Assembly: GCF_001541925.1 (NCBI RefSeq)
Contig: NZ_LQMW01000018.1
Location: 1 to 48,561, forward strand
Direction: 5' to 3'
DNA length: 48,561 bases
Source of the DNA: Nitrosopumilus sp. Nsub
Lineage (GTDB): Archaea; Thermoproteota; Nitrososphaeria; Nitrososphaerales; Nitrosopumilaceae
Part shown: positions 30,303 through 37,836 of the stretch, one piece after another
Position numbering within the stretch: position 1 is the first letter of the stretch
Layout of the letters: each line of letters starts with the position of its first letter
The notes under the pieces: generated by a model
What the model was told of the DNA's origin: nothing
Seen by the model: only the letters and a program-made list of their open reading frames with translations
Databases searched by the model: none
Position numbers and translations under genes: made by a program

Positions 30303-31631
30303 GTGAATAAAAAATCTGTTTTAAATATTGGATTTGACGATACTGACTCTCCCACTGGAATGTGCACCACTTTTCTAGCCTACAAAATTGTTGATTTACT
30401 ACAAAAACAAGAAACAGAATTTCTTGATTTTCCAAAACTAATCCGATTTAATCCTAACATTCCTTGGAAAACTCGAGGAAATGGAGCTGTTTCCTTAAAA
30501 ATTAAGACTAATCAGCCTTCAAAAATAAAAAATCAAATCAAAAATTTGGTTTCAAAATATTCTGATACTGAAAATGGTGCTAATCCTGGTTTGGTATTTT
30601 TTGAAAGTGATTTAATTCCTTCTGAATTTACAAAGTTTAGTAATTTAGCTTTGTGGCAATTGATTAACAGAAATAATGCTAAAAAATTTGTTAAAAAAAA
30701 CAATCTTGACTTTTATTATGAAGGAAACGGTCAGGGTTTAATCGGTGCAATCAGTGCAATTGGATATGATTTTAATGATCATACTTTGGAATTATTGAGT
30801 TATAGAAAAAAAAGAAGATTTGGGAAAAAAAGAATAATCTCTACAGACAGTGTAAAAAAAATGCAAGAAGAGACTTTTCCATATACATTCAACAGTTTTG
30901 ATACAAAAAGAGGGCGAGTTTTAATTACGCCTCATGGACCTGATCCAGTTTTTTATGGAGTACGAGGAGAAAATGTAGATTCGTTAGTTACTGCTACACA
31001 AATTCTACAAAGTGATGAAAAGTTAGATGGATACATGATTTTTAAATCAAATCAAGGCACTGGTGATCATCTAAAAAATGAATTAAATTCTGAAACTATG
31101 AAACCATATGCTTCTGGAACTTTAATTGGAACTGTTTCTAATATTCCAAAAATAACAAAAGGAGGACATGTCTTTTTTACAATTAATTCTAAAAATAACG
31201 AATTTTGGTGCGCTGTGTATAAAGAAACAGGAATGTCTACAATTGCTTCAAATCTCATAATTGGTGATAAAATTTCAGTGGGAGGAGGAGTAAGAAAAGC
31301 ATCAAAGAATTTTCCAAGAATAATTAATCTTGAATTTATCAAAATTATCTCTCTTAAAAAAAATCTATCAAAAACTAATCCTATTTGTAAAAAATGTAAG
31401 AAAAAAATGAAGTCAAAAGGTCGTAATCAGGGATTTCAATGTATCAAATGTGGTGCAAAAAATCTGAAAAAAACATCTTTAGAAATTCCAAGACAAATCA
31501 AAAAACAACTGTATATTCCTAAAATTTCTGCTCATAGACACCTAACTAGACCTTTACAGAGAACTGGAAAAACCAACAAAACTACAATATTTGATGCCTC
31601 ACAATCTTGGTTTTGTGTTTATGAAAAGTAG
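30303..31631 (+). CDS. tiaS: tRNA(Ile2) 2-agmatinylcytidine synthetase TiaS
   Basis: Modifies C34 of tRNA-Ile2 with agmatine so the anticodon reads AUA. 442 residues: N-terminal kinase-like domain with IGFDDTDSPTGMCTTF (9-24), the GNGAVSLKI segment, GLIGAISAIGY, an OB-fold portion, and a C-terminal zinc ribbon (CKKCKKKMKSKG, CIKCG). Start is GTG at 30303. Transcribed divergently from dph2. Confidence 0.92.
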   Translation: MNKKSVLNIGFDDTDSPTGMCTTFLAYKIVDLLQKQETEFLDFPKLIRFNPNIPWKTRGNGAVSLKIKTNQPSKIKNQIKNLVSKYSDTENGANPGLVFFESDLIPSEFTKFSNLALWQLINRNNAKKFVKKNNLDFYYEGNGQGLIGAISAIGYDFNDHTLELLSYRKKRRFGKKRIISTDSVKKMQEETFPYTFNSFDTKRGRVLITPHGPDPVFYGVRGENVDSLVTATQILQSDEKLDGYMIFKSNQGTGDHLKNELNSETMKPYASGTLIGTVSNIPKITKGGHVFFTINSKNNEFWCAVYKETGMSTIASNLIIGDKISVGGGVRKASKNFPRIINLEFIKIISLKKNLSKTNPICKKCKKKMKSKGRNQGFQCIKCGAKNLKKTSLEIPRQIKKQLYIPKISAHRHLTRPLQRTGKTNKTTIFDASQSWFCVYEK

Positions 31632-31671
31632 TTTATTGTTTGACTTTAAATCCGGCTCAATGATTAACCAT

Positions 31672-31693
31672 TTTTGATCCTTTTAGATCAAAA
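31672..31693 (+). other. 8-bp perfect hairpin after tiaS
   Basis: TTTTGATC and GATCAAAA pair perfectly around a 6-base loop, 40 bases beyond the tiaS stop, with a T-rich run soon after. It may be a 3'-end structure for tiaS or part of the origin region. Confidence 0.4.
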
Positions 31694-31892
31694 TATTTTC
31701 TTTTTTGAAAACTTTGTTATTTTGCACATATTTCATTTAAAATGACTGTTTTTCTTATTTTGTAAATATTTCATTAAATTACTTACTTATTTATTTTATT
31801 TCATTATTTTTGATATTTAATACAAATTATTGATTATTTTTTAGTTTTTTTTAAATTATATTTTTCTGACAAAATATTCTGATTAAAAATAT

Positions 31893-31905
31893 ATTTATAT
31901 ATTAT
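31893..31905 (+). promoter_or_regulatory. TATA-like box of orc1/cdc6
   Basis: A run reading ATTTATATATTAT lies about 25-30 bases before a purine-containing stretch at 31921-31926, which could be the transcription start, leaving a short leader of about 25 bases before the ATG at 31948. Confidence 0.4.
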
Positions 31906-31926
31906 AACAGATATATTTACGTGTGT

Positions 31927-31938
31927 TTCTAGTGGAGA
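31927..31938 (+). promoter_or_regulatory. Mini-ORB-like element upstream of orc1/cdc6
   Basis: TTCTAGTGGAGA matches the archaeal mini-ORB core TTCCAGTGGAAA at 10 of 12 positions, and lies 9 bases before the initiator ATG. The consensus is quoted from memory of Sulfolobus and euryarchaeal origins. It could be an initiator binding site for origin function or autoregulation. One copy only. Confidence 0.35.
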
Positions 31939-31947
31939 ATTATTAAA

Positions 31948-33261
31948 ATGAACTTGGATGACATTAAAAAATTTGGAGATCAATTAGATAAAGAAAATGA
32001 CATATTTGCAGATAAATCAGCTCTTGACACTCTATCTACTGAACCACCAAAAAGTCTCAAAGGTCGAGAATCTGAATCAAGAGAATTTATGACTCATCTG
32101 TATGGTTTTAAAAAAGGCAAAGTGCCACCTTTGATTTCTGTATATGGGCGAAGTGGTGCAGGAAAATCTGCCATTATAAAATATGTGTGTGCAAATCTTG
32201 ATTTTGTAAAACCGCTTTATGTCAATTTACGTGAAACAAAAACTGTTTTTGGAGCTGCCCAACTAATGTTACTTAACATTTCAAATGAACATGTAAAAAA
32301 TTCTCAAGGTATTACAGTTGTAATGCGCCAACTACGAGAAGCATTAAAAAAATATTTTAAATCAAATGATTTGTTTGTATTAATTTTAGATGAGTTTGAT
32401 TCTATATTCCATGATACTCGTGGTAGTCCATCTGATTTGATTTACAAACTAGTTGAGATACAAAGTGAACTATTACGATTTAAAAAACAAATCTGTATTG
32501 TAACAATTTCTAATAATGTATTATCTGATTATGATTTAGATGATAGGGTACGTTCTCGAATTGGTAATTCTGAGGTATTTTTCAAACCCTATGGGGAAGG
32601 TGAAATTTTAGAAATAATTAAGACAAGGGCCCAAATTGCATTGAATCGTCGTGTGTCTAATGATGTTTTAGAGTACATTGCACGTCTTTGTACCTTGGAG
32701 CATGGTGATGCAAGAAGAGCAGTTGATTTGTTAAGAATATGTGCTGAACTTGCAGGAAAAGATGATTCTGTAATTAAGAAAAAACATGTTGATGAAGCTA
32801 CCAAATCACTGCAAGTAGACCGTATTGCACTATTTCTACAAACAACATCCCTACATGTTAAACTAATTTTACTTGCTTTGGCAAAACGTACGTATGGAAC
32901 TGATGAGGAATGGCATGCTACTGCCGTTCTTTTTGATCGTTATCGTGAACTTGTACCTTCTGGTATTCACCCTGTAGAGTATAGGCGTTTTTCACAAATT
33001 CTAGTAGAAATTGAAAACTATGGCTTTATTTTCTCTCGTACTGGTTCAGGTGGTCGTCGTGGATACCATACAAAATTCCGACTTGATGTATCCCCTACTA
33101 TAGTTGGTGAAACTATTAACAAAGAATGGTGGGACAAAAATGCTGTTCAACAAAAGGCTGGAGTTTCTAATGTAAATAAAATAATTAATGACGCAAAACA
33201 TTCTACTACAATGCCTGGTTTGTTACGTAAACTAAAAGAACATCAAGAAGGAAAATGGTAA
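31948..33261 (+). CDS. orc1: Orc1/Cdc6 replication initiator
   Basis: AAA+ ATPase that marks origins and recruits the MCM helicase. 437 residues: Walker A GRSGAGKS (67-74), Walker B LILDEFDS (145-152), sensor 1 region (VTISNNVLSDYDLDDRVRS) and a sensor 2/arginine region, then a C-terminal winged helix (about 310-400, including GFIFSRTGSGGRRGYH) that binds origin DNA. Length is normal. The ATG follows the mini-ORB-like site. It begins the accessory stretch that ends at the initiator tRNA gene. Confidence 0.95.
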   Translation: MNLDDIKKFGDQLDKENDIFADKSALDTLSTEPPKSLKGRESESREFMTHLYGFKKGKVPPLISVYGRSGAGKSAIIKYVCANLDFVKPLYVNLRETKTVFGAAQLMLLNISNEHVKNSQGITVVMRQLREALKKYFKSNDLFVLILDEFDSIFHDTRGSPSDLIYKLVEIQSELLRFKKQICIVTISNNVLSDYDLDDRVRSRIGNSEVFFKPYGEGEILEIIKTRAQIALNRRVSNDVLEYIARLCTLEHGDARRAVDLLRICAELAGKDDSVIKKKHVDEATKSLQVDRIALFLQTTSLHVKLILLALAKRTYGTDEEWHATAVLFDRYRELVPSGIHPVEYRRFSQILVEIENYGFIFSRTGSGGRRGYHTKFRLDVSPTIVGETINKEWWDKNAVQQKAGVSNVNKIINDAKHSTTMPGLLRKLKEHQEGKW

Positions 33262-33327
33262 ACTATTTTTAAAATATTTATTATTACGTTGTTTTTTTAT
33301 TTTGATTCTTGTTTTATGATTAGTTTT

Positions 33328-33678
33328 TCATGAAATCAATTTTGTTATAGAATAGATTACTTGGTTTATTTTTTTTGAATCAATTTTACCAACTTGTTTT
33401 ACTGCTAAATCTTTTTGTAGTGTAAATATATTGCCAATTTTTATTCTACTTTTTTTTGGAATTCTACCTTCTTTCATATCTTTATTTTCTAATAAAATAG
33501 AATTATTTTTGTTATTCAAATTTGATGTAATTCCACAACAAATAAAATCATTTGAGCCTTTGTTGTATGAAATATTTGAAATAACCAATACTGGTCGTAG
33601 TTTTGGTTTGCTCAAATCTGTAAATGGAAACGGTATTAGTACTATTGTACCTCTATCAAACTTTATTCCAGATTTCAT
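33328..33678 (-). CDS. MazF/PemK-family toxin
   Basis: 116 residues of the MazF/PemK endoribonuclease family. The start FDRGTIVLIPFPFTDLSKPK, then LRPVLVIS (32-39), the family hallmark, and CCGITSNL follow the expected beta-barrel order; the C-terminus has the helical end KINQVIYSITKLIS. Toxins of this family cut mRNA at short motifs. Its start lies inside the end of the antitoxin gene (23-base overlap), a normal TA layout in which the antitoxin is translated first. The target sequence cannot be predicted. Confidence 0.85.
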   Translation of the reverse strand: MKSGIKFDRGTIVLIPFPFTDLSKPKLRPVLVISNISYNKGSNDFICCGITSNLNNKNNSILLENKDMKEGRIPKKSRIKIGNIFTLQKDLAVKQVGKIDSKKINQVIYSITKLIS

Positions 33679-33907
33679 CTTCTTTATTATCCCAAAGTTT
33701 TTTTGCAGTTTTTTCAGAAAATTTTATCAAATCTGATTCCATCTCTTTTTCAAGATTTGTTGCTTTTTGAATCAAAAGTTTTTTGTTCTTTGTAGCAAGT
33801 ATGAGATTGTCTCCTTTTTTGATTCCCAATGACTTGCGAATTTCACGTGGAATTGAAATTTGACCCTTTTCTGAAACTTTGATTGTTTTTAGTATTGCTT
33901 CACTCAT
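33656..33907 (-). CDS. AbrB/SpoVT-type antitoxin
   Basis: 83 residues. The N-terminal swapped-hairpin DNA-binding domain is plain: ILKTIKVSEKGQISIPREIR, then SLGIKKGDNLILA. The C-terminal half (EKEMESDLIKFSEKTAKKLW) is the charged tail that wraps the toxin. It likely binds the 16-bp palindrome 8 bases before its ATG, giving autoregulation of the pair. Confidence 0.87.
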   Translation of the reverse strand: MSEAILKTIKVSEKGQISIPREIRKSLGIKKGDNLILATKNKKLLIQKATNLEKEMESDLIKFSEKTAKKLWDNKEDEIWNKV

Positions 33908-33914
33908 ATATTAT

Positions 33915-33930
33915 GTAAGAAATTTCTTAC
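33915..33930 (-). promoter_or_regulatory. Perfect 16-bp palindrome operator of the TA module
   Basis: GTAAGAAATTTCTTAC is a perfect self-complementary sequence located between a TATA-like stretch (about 33932-33946, read on the minus strand) and the antitoxin ATG at 33907. That position covers the expected transcription start, so binding of the AbrB-type antitoxin there would repress the operon. Confidence 0.7.
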
Positions 33931-34055
33931 TTTTAAAATTTAATCATTAATGTCTCATTTTGTGCCTAAATTCACTTTACATAGTTTCCAAATTATCCCA
34001 TTTTGTGTAAAATGGAATCATTATTTCCTATACTGTCTCATCTTCCAAGAAATAG

Positions 34056-34301
34056 AATCAAACCATAAACCATGTTCAATTTATCAGACTAGGCAAAGAT
34101 TATTGGTATGCAGATTCTCCCATTAATGATCAGCACAGTTGGGAAGGATACCTATGGGCAGGATATGGAAATGCTAGAGAAATTGCAAATTTAGAGATCC
34201 GAAAAATGTTAAAAGAGATCAAACTTCATGGAAAAGAATTGCACTTAGAAACTGTTGATAAGATGTCTTTTTATATTTCAGAGAGAATAAGATTACTATG
34301 A
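34056..34301 (+). pseudogene. Start-less coding-like frame, probable gene remnant
   Basis: Open from a TAG at 34053-34055 to TGA at 34299-34301. It reads like real protein: IRLGKDYWYADSPINDQHSW, then EGYLWAGYGNAREIANLEIR, with tryptophans and balanced charge. No ATG, GTG or TTG sits near the beginning of the coding-like part; the only nearby ATG (34072) is out of frame, so one indel may have removed the start. Family unknown. Confidence 0.35.
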
Positions 34302-34381
34302 GCCCAGAAGATGAGAAAATCACAGATGAGTTAATTGAGAAATATTCTGATCTACTAGATGAATTAGCACATGACGATTAA
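34298..34381 (+). CDS. Tiny acidic ORF overlapping the upstream remnant
   Basis: 27 codons starting SPEDEKITDELIEKYSDLLD and ending at 34381. Its ATG overlaps the previous frame's TGA in an ATGA arrangement, which is typical of true archaeal gene pairs. The peptide is helical and strongly acidic, as in small antitoxin-like or adaptor peptides, but it is too short to classify. Confidence 0.3.
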   Translation: MSPEDEKITDELIEKYSDLLDELAHDD

Positions 34382-34544
34382 TCAAAACCTCTACCACACT
34401 CCTAGTTTAGCTCGCAAAACCCTATAGCCATTACTTTGATTATTACATCATACATTCCAAATAATCCTTGAATGCTTTGTTATTTGATTTTGTGAAATGG
34501 TATCCTCATTTCTATATGTATTATTTGAGAAATCCATAAAAATA

Positions 34545-34610
34545 TCACATACTATACTACATACTATATTTTCATAAATAAAAAGATATTTATAATTTTA
34601 TAGTATGTGA
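34545..34610 (+). promoter_or_regulatory. Inverted-repeat operator around the fic promoter
   Basis: Left arm TCACATACTATA (34545-34556) and right arm TATAGTATGTGA (34599-34610) are perfect 12-bp inverted repeats, 42 bases apart. A further direct copy ACATACTATA lies at 34559-34568. The TATA-like AT-rich run at 34586-34598 is between them, and the GTG start of fic is 6 bases after the right arm, so a dimeric repressor bound here could loop and block the promoter. Confidence 0.65.
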
Positions 34611-34616
34611 CCATTT

Positions 34617-35486
34617 GTGGTCATAATAGTAAATGAAAGAGGATTTTATTATTTGAGGCACAACATACAAGGTAAAGAAAAAAGAAAATATCTGGGAAAA
34701 ACAATTCCAAAAAATATAGATAAACTAAAAAGAGAATTTTTACAGAAATTTTATTCTGATGAATGGAGTCCAAAAATTAAAAGTATTTTTAAGAATTATC
34801 AAAAAGAACTAAAAACATTACCTGCATCAATTCAACTACAAAATTTTGAGAGTTTTGGAATAACTTTTACTTATAACACACAACGAATGGAAGGATCCAC
34901 TTTGACACAAGATGATACTAGAGGACTTTTAATTCATGGCATCACACCAAACAAAAAATCTCAAATTGACACAATAGAGACTCAAAGGCATTATGATTTA
35001 TTTATGAAATTGATTAATGCTAAAAAATTAAAAACGATAACACAAGATGTTGTATTGTCCTGGCATGGTGAAATTTTTGAACAAACAAAAATCGGTGAGG
35101 CAGGAAGTATAAGAGCATATAGAGTAGGAATTAAAGGAAATGATGAGATAGAATTTGCAACAGTTCCACAAATTAAACCAAAATTAAAAAAATTATTTAA
35201 TTGGTTAAACAAGTATGATGGGAAAATATCTCCTGTGGAATTGGCATGTATGGTACATTATGAGTTTGTATCAATTCATCCATTTGGTGATGGAAATGGT
35301 AGAGTATCAAGATTGTTGATGAATTATATCTTATTCAAATATAATTATCCGTTAATGCTTATCAAAAATCTCGATAAAAAAGGTTATTTCAAATCCCTTG
35401 AAAAGTCTAGTATGAAAAATGATTCCATGTATTTTCTAAAATGGTTCATGAAATATTATATAAAGTCAAATAAAAAATACATGTAA
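34617..35486 (+). CDS. Fic-domain AMP-transferase, class II (self-inhibited)
   Basis: 289 residues. The Fic catalytic motif HPFGDGNGR (221-229) is complete, so AMPylation activity is expected. An inhibitory motif T-Q-R-M-E-G (88-93) fits [S/T]xxxE[G/N], placing it N-terminal to the Fic core, which makes it class II, with built-in repression by the Glu. The first 60 residues are basic and helical (EKRKYLGKTI) and could touch DNA or RNA. No partner antitoxin gene (FicA/Phd) is adjacent. The start is GTG at 34617, about 25 bases after the TATA-like run, so the mRNA may be leaderless. Confidence 0.88.
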   Translation: MVIIVNERGFYYLRHNIQGKEKRKYLGKTIPKNIDKLKREFLQKFYSDEWSPKIKSIFKNYQKELKTLPASIQLQNFESFGITFTYNTQRMEGSTLTQDDTRGLLIHGITPNKKSQIDTIETQRHYDLFMKLINAKKLKTITQDVVLSWHGEIFEQTKIGEAGSIRAYRVGIKGNDEIEFATVPQIKPKLKKLFNWLNKYDGKISPVELACMVHYEFVSIHPFGDGNGRVSRLLMNYILFKYNYPLMLIKNLDKKGYFKSLEKSSMKNDSMYFLKWFMKYYIKSNKKYM

Positions 35487-35497
35487 ATTCTCACTCA

Positions 35498-35620
35498 TTA
35501 GAAATTTACATTATGTAATTTTTTATCATAACCATACCCAATAGGATAACTGTCAAAGGAATTGACAAATGCTTCTGACATACTCTTTTGGTGAGAATTT
35601 CTTGGAATCAATTTAGTCAT
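35498..35620 (-). CDS. 40-residue ORF with strong Shine-Dalgarno
   Basis: Starts TKLIPRNSHQKSMSEAF and ends in a YPIGYGYDKKLHNVNF tail. A GAGGAG Shine-Dalgarno sits 5 bases before the ATG, and the ATG overlaps the TGAC-TAA end of a short upstream open frame (ATGA-type). Few genes in the window have such a clear ribosome site, which argues that it is translated as a downstream operon member. Function unknown. Confidence 0.4.
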   Translation of the reverse strand: MTKLIPRNSHQKSMSEAFVNSFDSYPIGYGYDKKLHNVNF

Positions 35621-35687
35621 TTTTCTCCTCTTTTTCTTGTAAATACTCTAAAATGGTGTTCTGAGTAGTGCACTTTTTGATGAAAAT

Positions 35688-35834
35688 TCATTTTGCTTTG
35701 ACTTCTCTTGGATGTCTCTGTGTATGTTCTACTAGTCCTTTCATCTCCAGTGCGTCAAGCAGATAGTATATCTTGCTCTGAGGAACTCCTGCATCTTTCC
35801 ACAATCTTCTAGTTTTGGTCATGGCAAAGTACAT
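35688..35834 (-). pseudogene. TrmB-like winged-helix fragment
   Basis: 48 codons. The part WKDAGVPQSKIYYLLDALEM, then KGLVEHTQRHPREVKAK has the recognition helix and wing pattern of TrmB/MarR-type regulators, but it begins in mid-domain and lacks the dimer and ligand parts. The same frame continues past the TGA for 26 more codons up to the TAA just before the 40-residue ORF, suggesting a broken gene or short regulator. It has CTG and GAC codons and about 45% GC in a sampled line, unlike the AT-rich surroundings. Confidence 0.5.
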
Positions 35835-35965
35835 CTAAGTGCTTGATACATACCAATTATGATATTTTTATAATATTGCGATCAAATGTTTTGTGTTAAT
35901 AATACACTGCATGTCAACTAATAATACAACTCAAATGCTTTATGATGTGTATGTTTTAGTACGAT

Positions 35966-37096
35966 GTGATTTTTCAAATCATACATTTACAAATTTTATT
36001 TGATGAATTTTTTATAATTGGTTTGATTGTTTTATTTACTATTTTGGCAATACTAATACCTGTAATTTTTTATCTTATCCAAAAACGTACAATTATTCAA
36101 CTAGAATCTACCCTAAACCCTGATGATACATTTAACCAAAAGATAAAACCCGAATTAACTAGAATCTCTCAAAGAATTGATACAGTTCGTGAAAGTTTTC
36201 CACACTTGGCAATGATTACTGATTTAAAATATGATTTTGAGATTTTAAAATCAAATTTGGAAGAAAATCAATCAAATCTCAAACTAGAGACTGCAAGTCA
36301 AATAAAGGCAATAACTCACACCACTCAAACTCAAATAAAATCTGACGTTGCACAATTTGCAAAAAATCAAATCACTCAAAATACTATTCACAGAGAAGAA
36401 TTTGAAGAATTACGCACAAAAATTGACAATTACTTGAGTGATGATAATAATTTGTCACACATCAACATTCTAAATGAAATATTTGATTCAAAAAAACCTA
36501 GAACTCTAATGTGGCAATGTGATCTACTGGATTTGTTAAAACATGGAATTGCCCCTGAAATTTCACAAGAATTATTACACTCAAAGGCAATCCCATCTAG
36601 TGCATACGTGCCATTTTTAAAAAAATTACACTCAAAAGATATCATTGTACCATCTAATGTAATATCATATCAATTAGATGAGAATTATTGGTGGATATAC
36701 AATTACACAAAAAATCCAGGAGAGCTAAAATCCATTTTAGATTCATCAATAATTAAAGAAAAACAATATCAAGACTATGTGTGCAAAAATCTATCTCAAA
36801 TTGAATCTGATCTATCTTTGTTGCAATCTGAATATTCCTTAAACAGTGGCTCAATTGATTTTCTATGCCTTGATGGAACAGGAAATAATGTGGGATTGGA
36901 ATTAAAATATCCTAAAGCCTCTAAAAGAGATTGTAGACAATTAGATGGCTACAAAAAAGAGTACCTTAGAACTAGTGCATCACTGAATTTTCGTGGAATT
37001 TTAGTGTCTCCTGAAATTTCTGATGATGTAAAAAATGAACTAATACAATACGGATTGGAGTATTGTGAATTATCTATAGATTCTATCAATAAATGA
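35966..37096 (+). CDS. Membrane-anchored coiled-coil protein with NucS-like PD-(D/E)XK nuclease domain
   Basis: 376 residues in three parts. One transmembrane helix near the N-terminus (16-38, IIGLIVLFTILAILIPVIFY), a long coiled-coil stalk (about 45-155), and a C-terminal domain (about 262-370) resembling the nuclease half of NucS/DUF91: Y268-Q-D-Y, then S-G-S-I-D298-F-L-C, G-L-E312-L-K314-Y, and Q325-L-D-G-Y329. D298, E312 and K314 form the D-ExK core and the QxxxY is typical of restriction-type nucleases of this clade. Between stalk and nuclease (about 165-245) is a region reminiscent of a helical domain. NucS itself is soluble and has no such anchor. The start is GTG at 35966. Likely cytosolic nuclease tethered to the membrane, possibly defensive. 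Confidence 0.72.
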   Translation: MIFQIIHLQILFDEFFIIGLIVLFTILAILIPVIFYLIQKRTIIQLESTLNPDDTFNQKIKPELTRISQRIDTVRESFPHLAMITDLKYDFEILKSNLEENQSNLKLETASQIKAITHTTQTQIKSDVAQFAKNQITQNTIHREEFEELRTKIDNYLSDDNNLSHINILNEIFDSKKPRTLMWQCDLLDLLKHGIAPEISQELLHSKAIPSSAYVPFLKKLHSKDIIVPSNVISYQLDENYWWIYNYTKNPGELKSILDSSIIKEKQYQDYVCKNLSQIESDLSLLQSEYSLNSGSIDFLCLDGTGNNVGLELKYPKASKRDCRQLDGYKKEYLRTSASLNFRGILVSPEISDDVKNELIQYGLEYCELSIDSINK

Positions 37097-37132
37097 TTTC
37101 AAGTTTTTTTAAAAGTTAATTTTCTTGCAGAA

Positions 37133-37739
37133 CTATTGAATTTTTATTATTTTATTTAACAAATTTTTCTTTTTTGGATGTTCAAACCCAATCTCGTTTT
37201 TGAATTTATCAAGATCTTTTCTTGAAATTACACGATACCAACTATTATCACAGTTAGGATTTGTAATTCTTGAAGGTACATTAATTGTATGCATTAGTTG
37301 TCTAGTTTGAACTAATCCTCCATTGTTCATACTTTTAACTCTCACAACAAAATTTGTTTTGTCTACTGTTCCTTTATCATCAAAAAATATTCAATCGAAA
37401 TTTTTTAACTTTTTTTTGTAGATTTGATGATTTTTTTAATACACCAACTTGTGTATTCTTTCCGCCTAATTCTATGATTCTTAAATAAACTCTTTTTGAT
37501 TTGAACACCATAACTGTGGTTTTTTCGTACTTTGATATGATAAATTTCTAAAATATCTGTTGAAAAATCTCTTAATAATTTCTCATTTGTATTACAATAA
37601 CCTATTTGGCATCTTTTTCTGTCTTGATGATATTTTCTACCTTGAACAATTTGCAAGCAATTCTTTTCAATATGACTAATCCATACGAACATACATGTGC
37701 GGCTATTTTAGCTTCTTTTGGACTTATTACATTCATCAT
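37133..37739 (-). pseudogene. Decayed LAGLIDADG homing endonuclease
   Basis: Three pieces in shifted frames make one gene. The start (ATG at 37739 or 37736) gives ISPKEAKIAAHVCSYG, a LAGLIDADG motif 1. After a frameshift comes GYCNTNEKLLRDF (37405-37692 frame), a typical segment following the first motif. After another shift comes FFDDKGTVDKTNFVVRV, the second LAGLIDADG-like motif, and the ending KFKNEIGFEHPKKKNLL (37133-37345). At least two frameshifts separate the parts, so no active protein is made. It lies downstream of the initiator tRNA gene on the same strand. Confidence 0.75.
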
Positions 37740-37747
37740 TCTTATTT

Positions 37748-37761: not shown

Positions 37762-37836
37762 TAGCGGGGAATAGATTTGAACTATTGAACTGCGGGTTAT
37801 GAGCCCGCCGGGATGACCTGGCTTCCCCACCCCGCT
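37762..37836 (-). tRNA. tRNA-Met (CAT), initiator
   Basis: 75 bases on the minus strand, no intron. The acceptor stem AGCGGGG/CCCCGCT is perfect, with discriminator A. The D arm pairs GGGA/TCCC, the anticodon arm is GCGGG-CTCATAA-CCCGC with anticodon CAT, and the T arm is AATAG-TTCAAAT-CTATT. The A1-U72 pair and the three consecutive G-C pairs in the anticodon stem mark an archaeal initiator. CCA is not encoded. Confidence 0.95.

Follow-up and report, generated by a model that had tools for sequence, protein, structure and literature searches.

The ORF at 35966-37096 of the window, by which we mean the whole analysed contig of 48,561 nucleotides from the marine ammonia-oxidising archaeon Nitrosopumilus sp. 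Nsub (contig C11 of genome G000; 1.38 Mb, completeness 99.6%), encodes a protein with a NucS-type nuclease domain held on a predicted membrane-anchored stalk. Its gene is a mobile accessory gene that sits beside toxin genes on an inserted island. We give an even chance to the proposal that it is a mobile, single-gene, membrane-anchored DNA nuclease defending the cell against incoming or mobile DNA, and favour this reading over a suicide effector, a nuclease that serves its element and a repair enzyme. The gene and its parts are as follows:

35966-37096, plus strand: gene of the membrane-tethered NucS_C nuclease, 376 aa, GTG start (ORF list, PF01939, family alignment)
36011-36079, plus strand: predicted single transmembrane helix, residues ~16-38 (hydropathy in six members; helix also in the AlphaFold models)
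36128-36439, plus strand: helical stalk, residues 55-158, possibly a coiled coil (AlphaFold models; periodicity test)
36443-36703, plus strand: winged-helix domain, residues 160-246, presumed to bind DNA (predicted H-H-H-H-E-E topology; conserved block; weak HTH_45 match)
36716-37072, plus strand: NucS-type PD-(D/E)XK core, residues 251-369 (PF01939, alignment, AlphaFold, Foldseek)
36857-36859, 36899-36901 and 36905-36907, plus strand: active-site codons D298, E312 and K314
36938-36940 and 36950-36952, plus strand: further core codons Q325 and Y329

Residues 265-369 belong to the Pfam family NucS_C (PF01939) with E 6e-13 and 49 bits, the cutoff being 24, and this ORF is its sole match in the genome; the NCBIfam NucS equivalog covers the C-terminal part only (76 bits, cutoff 216). 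Our family alignment comprises six members with a mean column identity of 56%, the window copy being 30-36% identical to the others; a seventh, frame-shifted member (G669) was left apart. E265, D298, E312, K314, Q325 and Y329 are invariant in all six sequences, in full agreement with the D-ExK core and QxxxY motif that the first-pass annotation, made from the letters of the window, had placed at the last five of these positions. AlphaFold predicted an alpha-beta-beta-beta-alpha-beta core for residues 251-368 (pLDDT ~95-98 with NucS_C rows in the alignment), and a rerun on the six family sequences alone, made to avoid circularity, returned the same core with block-mean pLDDT mostly of 88-95. 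With either model, Foldseek identified NucS/EndoMS as the best match in the PDB (P. abyssi NucS, 2vld: E 8e-9 and 1.2e-8; rmsd 1.6 A over 106 columns). The PD-(D/E)XK fold claimed for the core is thus well supported by the models, and given this fold and the conserved active site DNA cleavage is very likely. The transmembrane and winged-helix layout would also suit an inactive tether that anchors DNA to the membrane, yet the catalytic residues D298, E312, K314, Q325 and Y329 remain invariant at ~34% identity, which indicates selection on catalysis and makes such a role most improbable. The C-termini of the family (ELSIDSINK in the window copy; EIDF, EIEF, EVVF and EIQF in the relatives) differ from the actinobacterial PCNA-binding motif [E/K][L/Y][T/R]LF (PMC8228993); archaeal motifs vary.

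Upstream of the core, a strongly hydrophobic segment starts at residue ~16, with a Kyte-Doolittle mean of 3.15 over 19 residues, and is the only one in the protein; the single membrane helix of the first-pass annotation therefore stands, and it recurs in the five aligned relatives, so that all six members have one N-terminal hydrophobic helix, then basic residues and nothing hydrophobic later. By the positive-inside rule, these basic residues would give an N-out/C-in orientation with a cytoplasmic C-terminus, and a membrane location in vivo is predicted. The same annotation proposed a long coiled-coil stalk. A long helical stalk is indeed modelled, but its heptad periodicity, marginal to significant in some relatives (p 0.00, 0.01, 0.03 and 0.05), is not significant in the window copy (p 0.40); the stalk is probably oligomeric. 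The winged-helix domain between stalk and core is a feature that the earlier reading had missed. It is strongly conserved across the family and its topology is clear in the models, albeit at lower confidence than that of the core, and the sequence matches HTH_45 weakly and in one member only (4.5e-4). In 200 genomes of the class this middle domain had no match beyond the family, and none among PDB sequences was credible. We presume that it binds DNA.

The gene lies on a 6.1-kb island inserted next to a tRNA gene, composed as follows:

31631-37744, no strand: inserted island carrying the nuclease gene (absent from close relatives; empty site in 23)
31948-33261, plus strand: accessory Orc1/Cdc6-like gene (98% identical in G097; Cdc6 domains in the G097 copy)
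33328-33678, minus strand: MazF/PemK-like toxin (PF02452, 1.9e-14)
33656-33907, minus strand: MazE/AbrB-like antitoxin (PF04014, 6.9e-11)
34617-35486, plus strand: Fic protein with the motif HPFGDGNGR (PF02661, 1.7e-19; PADLOC PDC-S04, 2e-28)
35688-35834, minus strand: truncated TrmB-like regulator (longer version in G097, locus L114, 9784-10125)
37133-37735, minus strand: degraded LAGLIDADG-like gene at the right end of the island (PF14528, E 0.0054 on 37133-37345; stops and frame shifts, three-frame reading)
37762-37836, minus strand: tRNA-Met (CAT) at the right edge of the island (ARAGORN)

G065 and G125 (~90% DNA identity) lack the whole 6.1 kb, 31630 being followed there directly by 37745, and the site is empty in 23 relatives in all (these two, G391 and 20 further genomes), in which the tRNA-Met gene comes right after the gene that ends at 31631. 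We found no integrase within the island. Another species, G097, carries an island at the same gene: DNA identity between the two contigs rises from ~76% to 95-100% just past the stop codon, the stretch 33551-35533 is 99.7% identical, and the Orc1/Cdc6-like protein is 98% identical, against 39-51% or no detectable counterpart in other congeners. The G097 island shares Cdc6, MazEF and Fic, and in place of the nuclease it has an AbiEii homologue and a SoFic-type Fic protein (1.3e-118). Since the two islands occupy the same site with differing cargo, interchangeable islands can evidently settle there, with the nuclease among their cargo genes; the tRNA-Met site is thus a variable hot spot for toxin and defence cargo, and the location among toxins described in the first-pass annotation (MazF/MazE at 33328-33907, Fic at 34617-35486) is borne out. 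An Orc1/Cdc6-like initiator is also found in thaumarchaeal integrated elements (PMC6563490), which would suit a nuclease that serves its own element, either by keeping rivals out or by nicking and processing the element's DNA at the membrane. We nevertheless regard this as rather unlikely, as the sister island in G097 keeps Cdc6, MazEF and Fic without the nuclease, and the other copies of the nuclease do not adjoin a Cdc6 gene.

Some further details of the site deserve mention. In the G097 island (contig C59, locus L114, 4841-14044) an HTH-containing ORF precedes the AbiEii homologue, and a SoFic-like protein and a MazF-like fragment are also present. Compared with close relatives, the tRNA-Met has two compensatory T-stem changes, from G-C to A-U (~37771 and ~37785), and the 3' part of this gene may have been supplied by the element; the GGG/CCC anticodon stem suggests an initiator tRNA. 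The left neighbour of the island (30303-31631), which abuts the CAT-anticodon tRNA in the 23 relatives, reads from sequence as a TiaS-like protein (tRNA-Ile2 agmatidine synthetase).

Outside the window the family is rare. A single-sequence scan of genome contigs detected nothing, and with the family alignment as query five loci were found; in total, the family is present in 7 of 250 Nitrosopumilaceae genomes (~3%), from four genera; the family name is taken from the records of the relatives, which are Thaumarchaeota, Nitrosopumilus and Cenarchaeum MAGs. The protein family forms a clade (100/96) apart from other archaeal NucS_C sequences in a maximum-likelihood tree of this domain. In the rest of the phylum the matches listed are confined to the C-terminal domain, and most of the ORFs concerned have the length of canonical NucS; plasmid matches are NucS proteins or the NucS_C domain, none spanning 80% of the query. 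Phage records contained no relatives, nor did IMG/VR contain any of the whole protein or of the middle domain. A different NucS_C protein of 257 aa in G678 (contig C35, locus L061, 1378-2945) adjoins a tyrosine-recombinase-like ORF, which suggests that nucleases of the NucS_C type have travelled on integrated elements on more than one occasion.

Horizontal mobility of the tethered nuclease gene is well supported. Copies from one genus may share 34-36% identity, against 82-84% for HMG-CoA reductase; the window copy is 31-36% identical to all others, and those of G227 and G239, from two genera, share 69% identity; this discordance with host relatedness, together with the empty sites in close relatives, identifies it as a mobile accessory gene. 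The codon usage of the nuclease gene scores -0.862, where three core genes score -0.75 to -0.80; this is only mildly atypical and not decisive. The seven genomes present seven unrelated neighbourhoods and no constant housekeeping locus: beyond the window copy, G227 has a KAP NTPase beside the gene, G205 a ParE-like toxin and a PDC-M19A candidate, G177 a calcineurin-like phosphoesterase and, from ORF reading, G166 AsnC-like and TPR proteins. In G669 the neighbouring ORFs read as transposase-like genes, and the nuclease is split by its frame shift (locus L068, 9223-10367) in a region rich in transposase-like fragments. In G239 (contig C84, locus L065, 3858-10205) a cluster read as Rad50-Mre11-HerA-NurA converges on the nuclease gene. 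This Rad50 may itself be accessory: three congeners gave no match to it, and neither did 65 of 81 family genomes, although long coiled-coil proteins may escape the first stage of the search. The G239 cluster, the NucS_C catalytic domain and our failure to find canonical NucS in the other Nitrosopumilaceae searched could point to a nuclease for DNA repair or for limiting recombination, standing in for NucS/EndoMS or acting as a functional RmuC of these archaea. We consider this improbable: a gene present in 3% of the family genomes and acquired on an island does not meet a needed function, the protein gives no RmuC match, and it lacks the NucS_N domain with its mismatch-binding residues (PMC6829318), which the control NucS does match.

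No linked partner gene is conserved across the seven loci, and none has a conserved antitoxin, sensor, trigger or immunity gene beside the nuclease. A multi-gene defence system was accordingly rejected, and the undescribed system for which the first-pass annotation saw a candidate here survives as a single-gene architecture only; the nuclease probably acts alone. The earlier comparison with abortive-infection and restriction effectors fits the domain layout and the mobile, toxin-rich context; an abortive-infection or restriction function is putative. A triggered suicide effector or addiction toxin that cuts the host's own DNA, with the membrane segment perhaps sensing envelope damage or virus assembly, would be in keeping with the adjoining MazEF and Fic, with AbiEii at the same site in G097 and with the reported toxicity of the nuclease ShdA without its anchor (PMC10270631). 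We find it unlikely, as no antitoxin or sensor gene is conserved beside the nuclease in the seven loci, and as the nuclease is a lone gene with its own predicted DNA-binding domain.

The reading that we prefer, defence against incoming DNA, follows from the combination of a NucS-like domain on a membrane stalk with an acquired island beside toxin genes; this points to a probable weapon against foreign DNA and away from a role in repair. The N-terminal helix would sit in the membrane, and the stalk, probably oligomeric, would hold the winged helix and the NucS-type domain in the cytoplasm; the winged helix would grip DNA close to the membrane, and the PD-(D/E)XK domain would then cut it. The tether might limit harm to the host chromosome, as was reported for ShdA. 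In favour of this reading we count the invariant active site, the core matched to NucS without NucS rows and the conserved membrane and winged-helix parts; the presence in 7 of 250 genomes, the discordant identities, the empty site in 23 relatives and the island partly common with G097; the neighbours MazEF and Fic in the window, the KAP NTPase in G227 and the ParE-like toxin and PDC-M19A candidate in G205; and the AbiEii and SoFic homologues in the sister island, along with a layout and single-gene sufficiency like those of ShdA. Against it stand the lack of a conserved partner, trigger or immunity gene, defence-family profiles that match the nuclease only weakly and partially (PADLOC PDC-S11), the copies in G177, G239 and G166 that adjoin ordinary genes, and the fact that non-defence cargo also rides toxin-rich islands. 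Whereas domain order, conserved active site, mobility and toxin-rich context come from sequence, structure prediction and genome comparison, the antiviral or anti-plasmid role is what we infer from them. More tentative, and somewhat short of an even chance, is the fuller proposal of a hitherto undescribed archaeal single-gene immune nuclease that cuts viral or plasmid DNA at the membrane, is independent of RmuC/ShdA and has spread on toxin-rich islands among ammonia-oxidising archaea. These archaea are among the most abundant microbes of the ocean and, to our knowledge, little is known of their resistance to viruses; the nuclease offers a concrete candidate whose active site is named and which can be tested. 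If the proposal is true, evolution has reached the membrane-stalk design of RmuC/ShdA twice, on the second occasion with a different nuclease that is the catalytic portion of an archaeal repair enzyme.

Among known systems, NucS/EndoMS shares with the tethered nuclease the PF01939 catalytic domain with the same D-x13-E-x-K-x10-Q-x3-Y spacing. NucS/EndoMS, however, is conserved and has the PF21003 NucS_N domain, whereas the tethered family is sporadic and mobile and has a transmembrane helix, stalk and winged helix instead; PF21003 was absent from the protein at E-values up to 1 (2.1e-25 in the control NucS) and from the 25 families listed for the six members. NucS_N is the dimerising, mismatch-binding half, which captures flipped mismatched bases (PMC6829318, PMC8228993), and without it mismatch repair is unlikely. 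From sequence, then, and in agreement with the first-pass annotation, the protein is not the repair enzyme NucS/EndoMS: NucS_N is missing, the distribution is sporadic and a membrane helix is predicted. Such proteins should not be labelled "endonuclease NucS". That NucS_C occurs in other architectures has been noted before in a general way (PMC5290159), and the Alkaliphilus plasmid protein WP_212383292.1 (315 residues) likewise carries a C-terminal NucS_C in a non-NucS protein, but with an unrelated N-terminal part and no membrane helix. We found no paper tying NucS to a defence system. The thaumarchaeal integrated elements resemble the island as small elements with Orc1/Cdc6 and toxin genes, here adjoining a tRNA gene; the text describing them mentions neither NucS nor Fic (PMC6563490).

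Shedu SduA, a defence encoded by one gene, joins a PD-(D/E)XK nuclease to N-terminal parts that vary. Its SduA_C domain (PF14082, DUF4263) matches just one of the six members, at E 0.047, and SduA was not among the listed Foldseek matches of either model. The parallel that we draw is with ShdA of Shield, an RmuC-type, membrane-bound nuclease that degrades DNA, lowers transformation and protects against phages alone, with no further gene needed; without its membrane anchor it could not be cloned (PMC10270631). ShdA and RmuC have an N-terminal membrane anchor and a cytoplasmic PD-(D/E)XK nuclease, as predicted here, and E. coli RmuC also has, by its sequence, a long stalk. Homology was rejected: hhalign against E. 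coli RmuC pairs the membrane helix only, and the RmuC domain (PF02646), whose model does work in control genomes, matches no family member. ShdA is so far known from Pseudomonas, whereas the tethered nuclease is archaeal and has a winged helix; on present evidence it would work like ShdA without being one.
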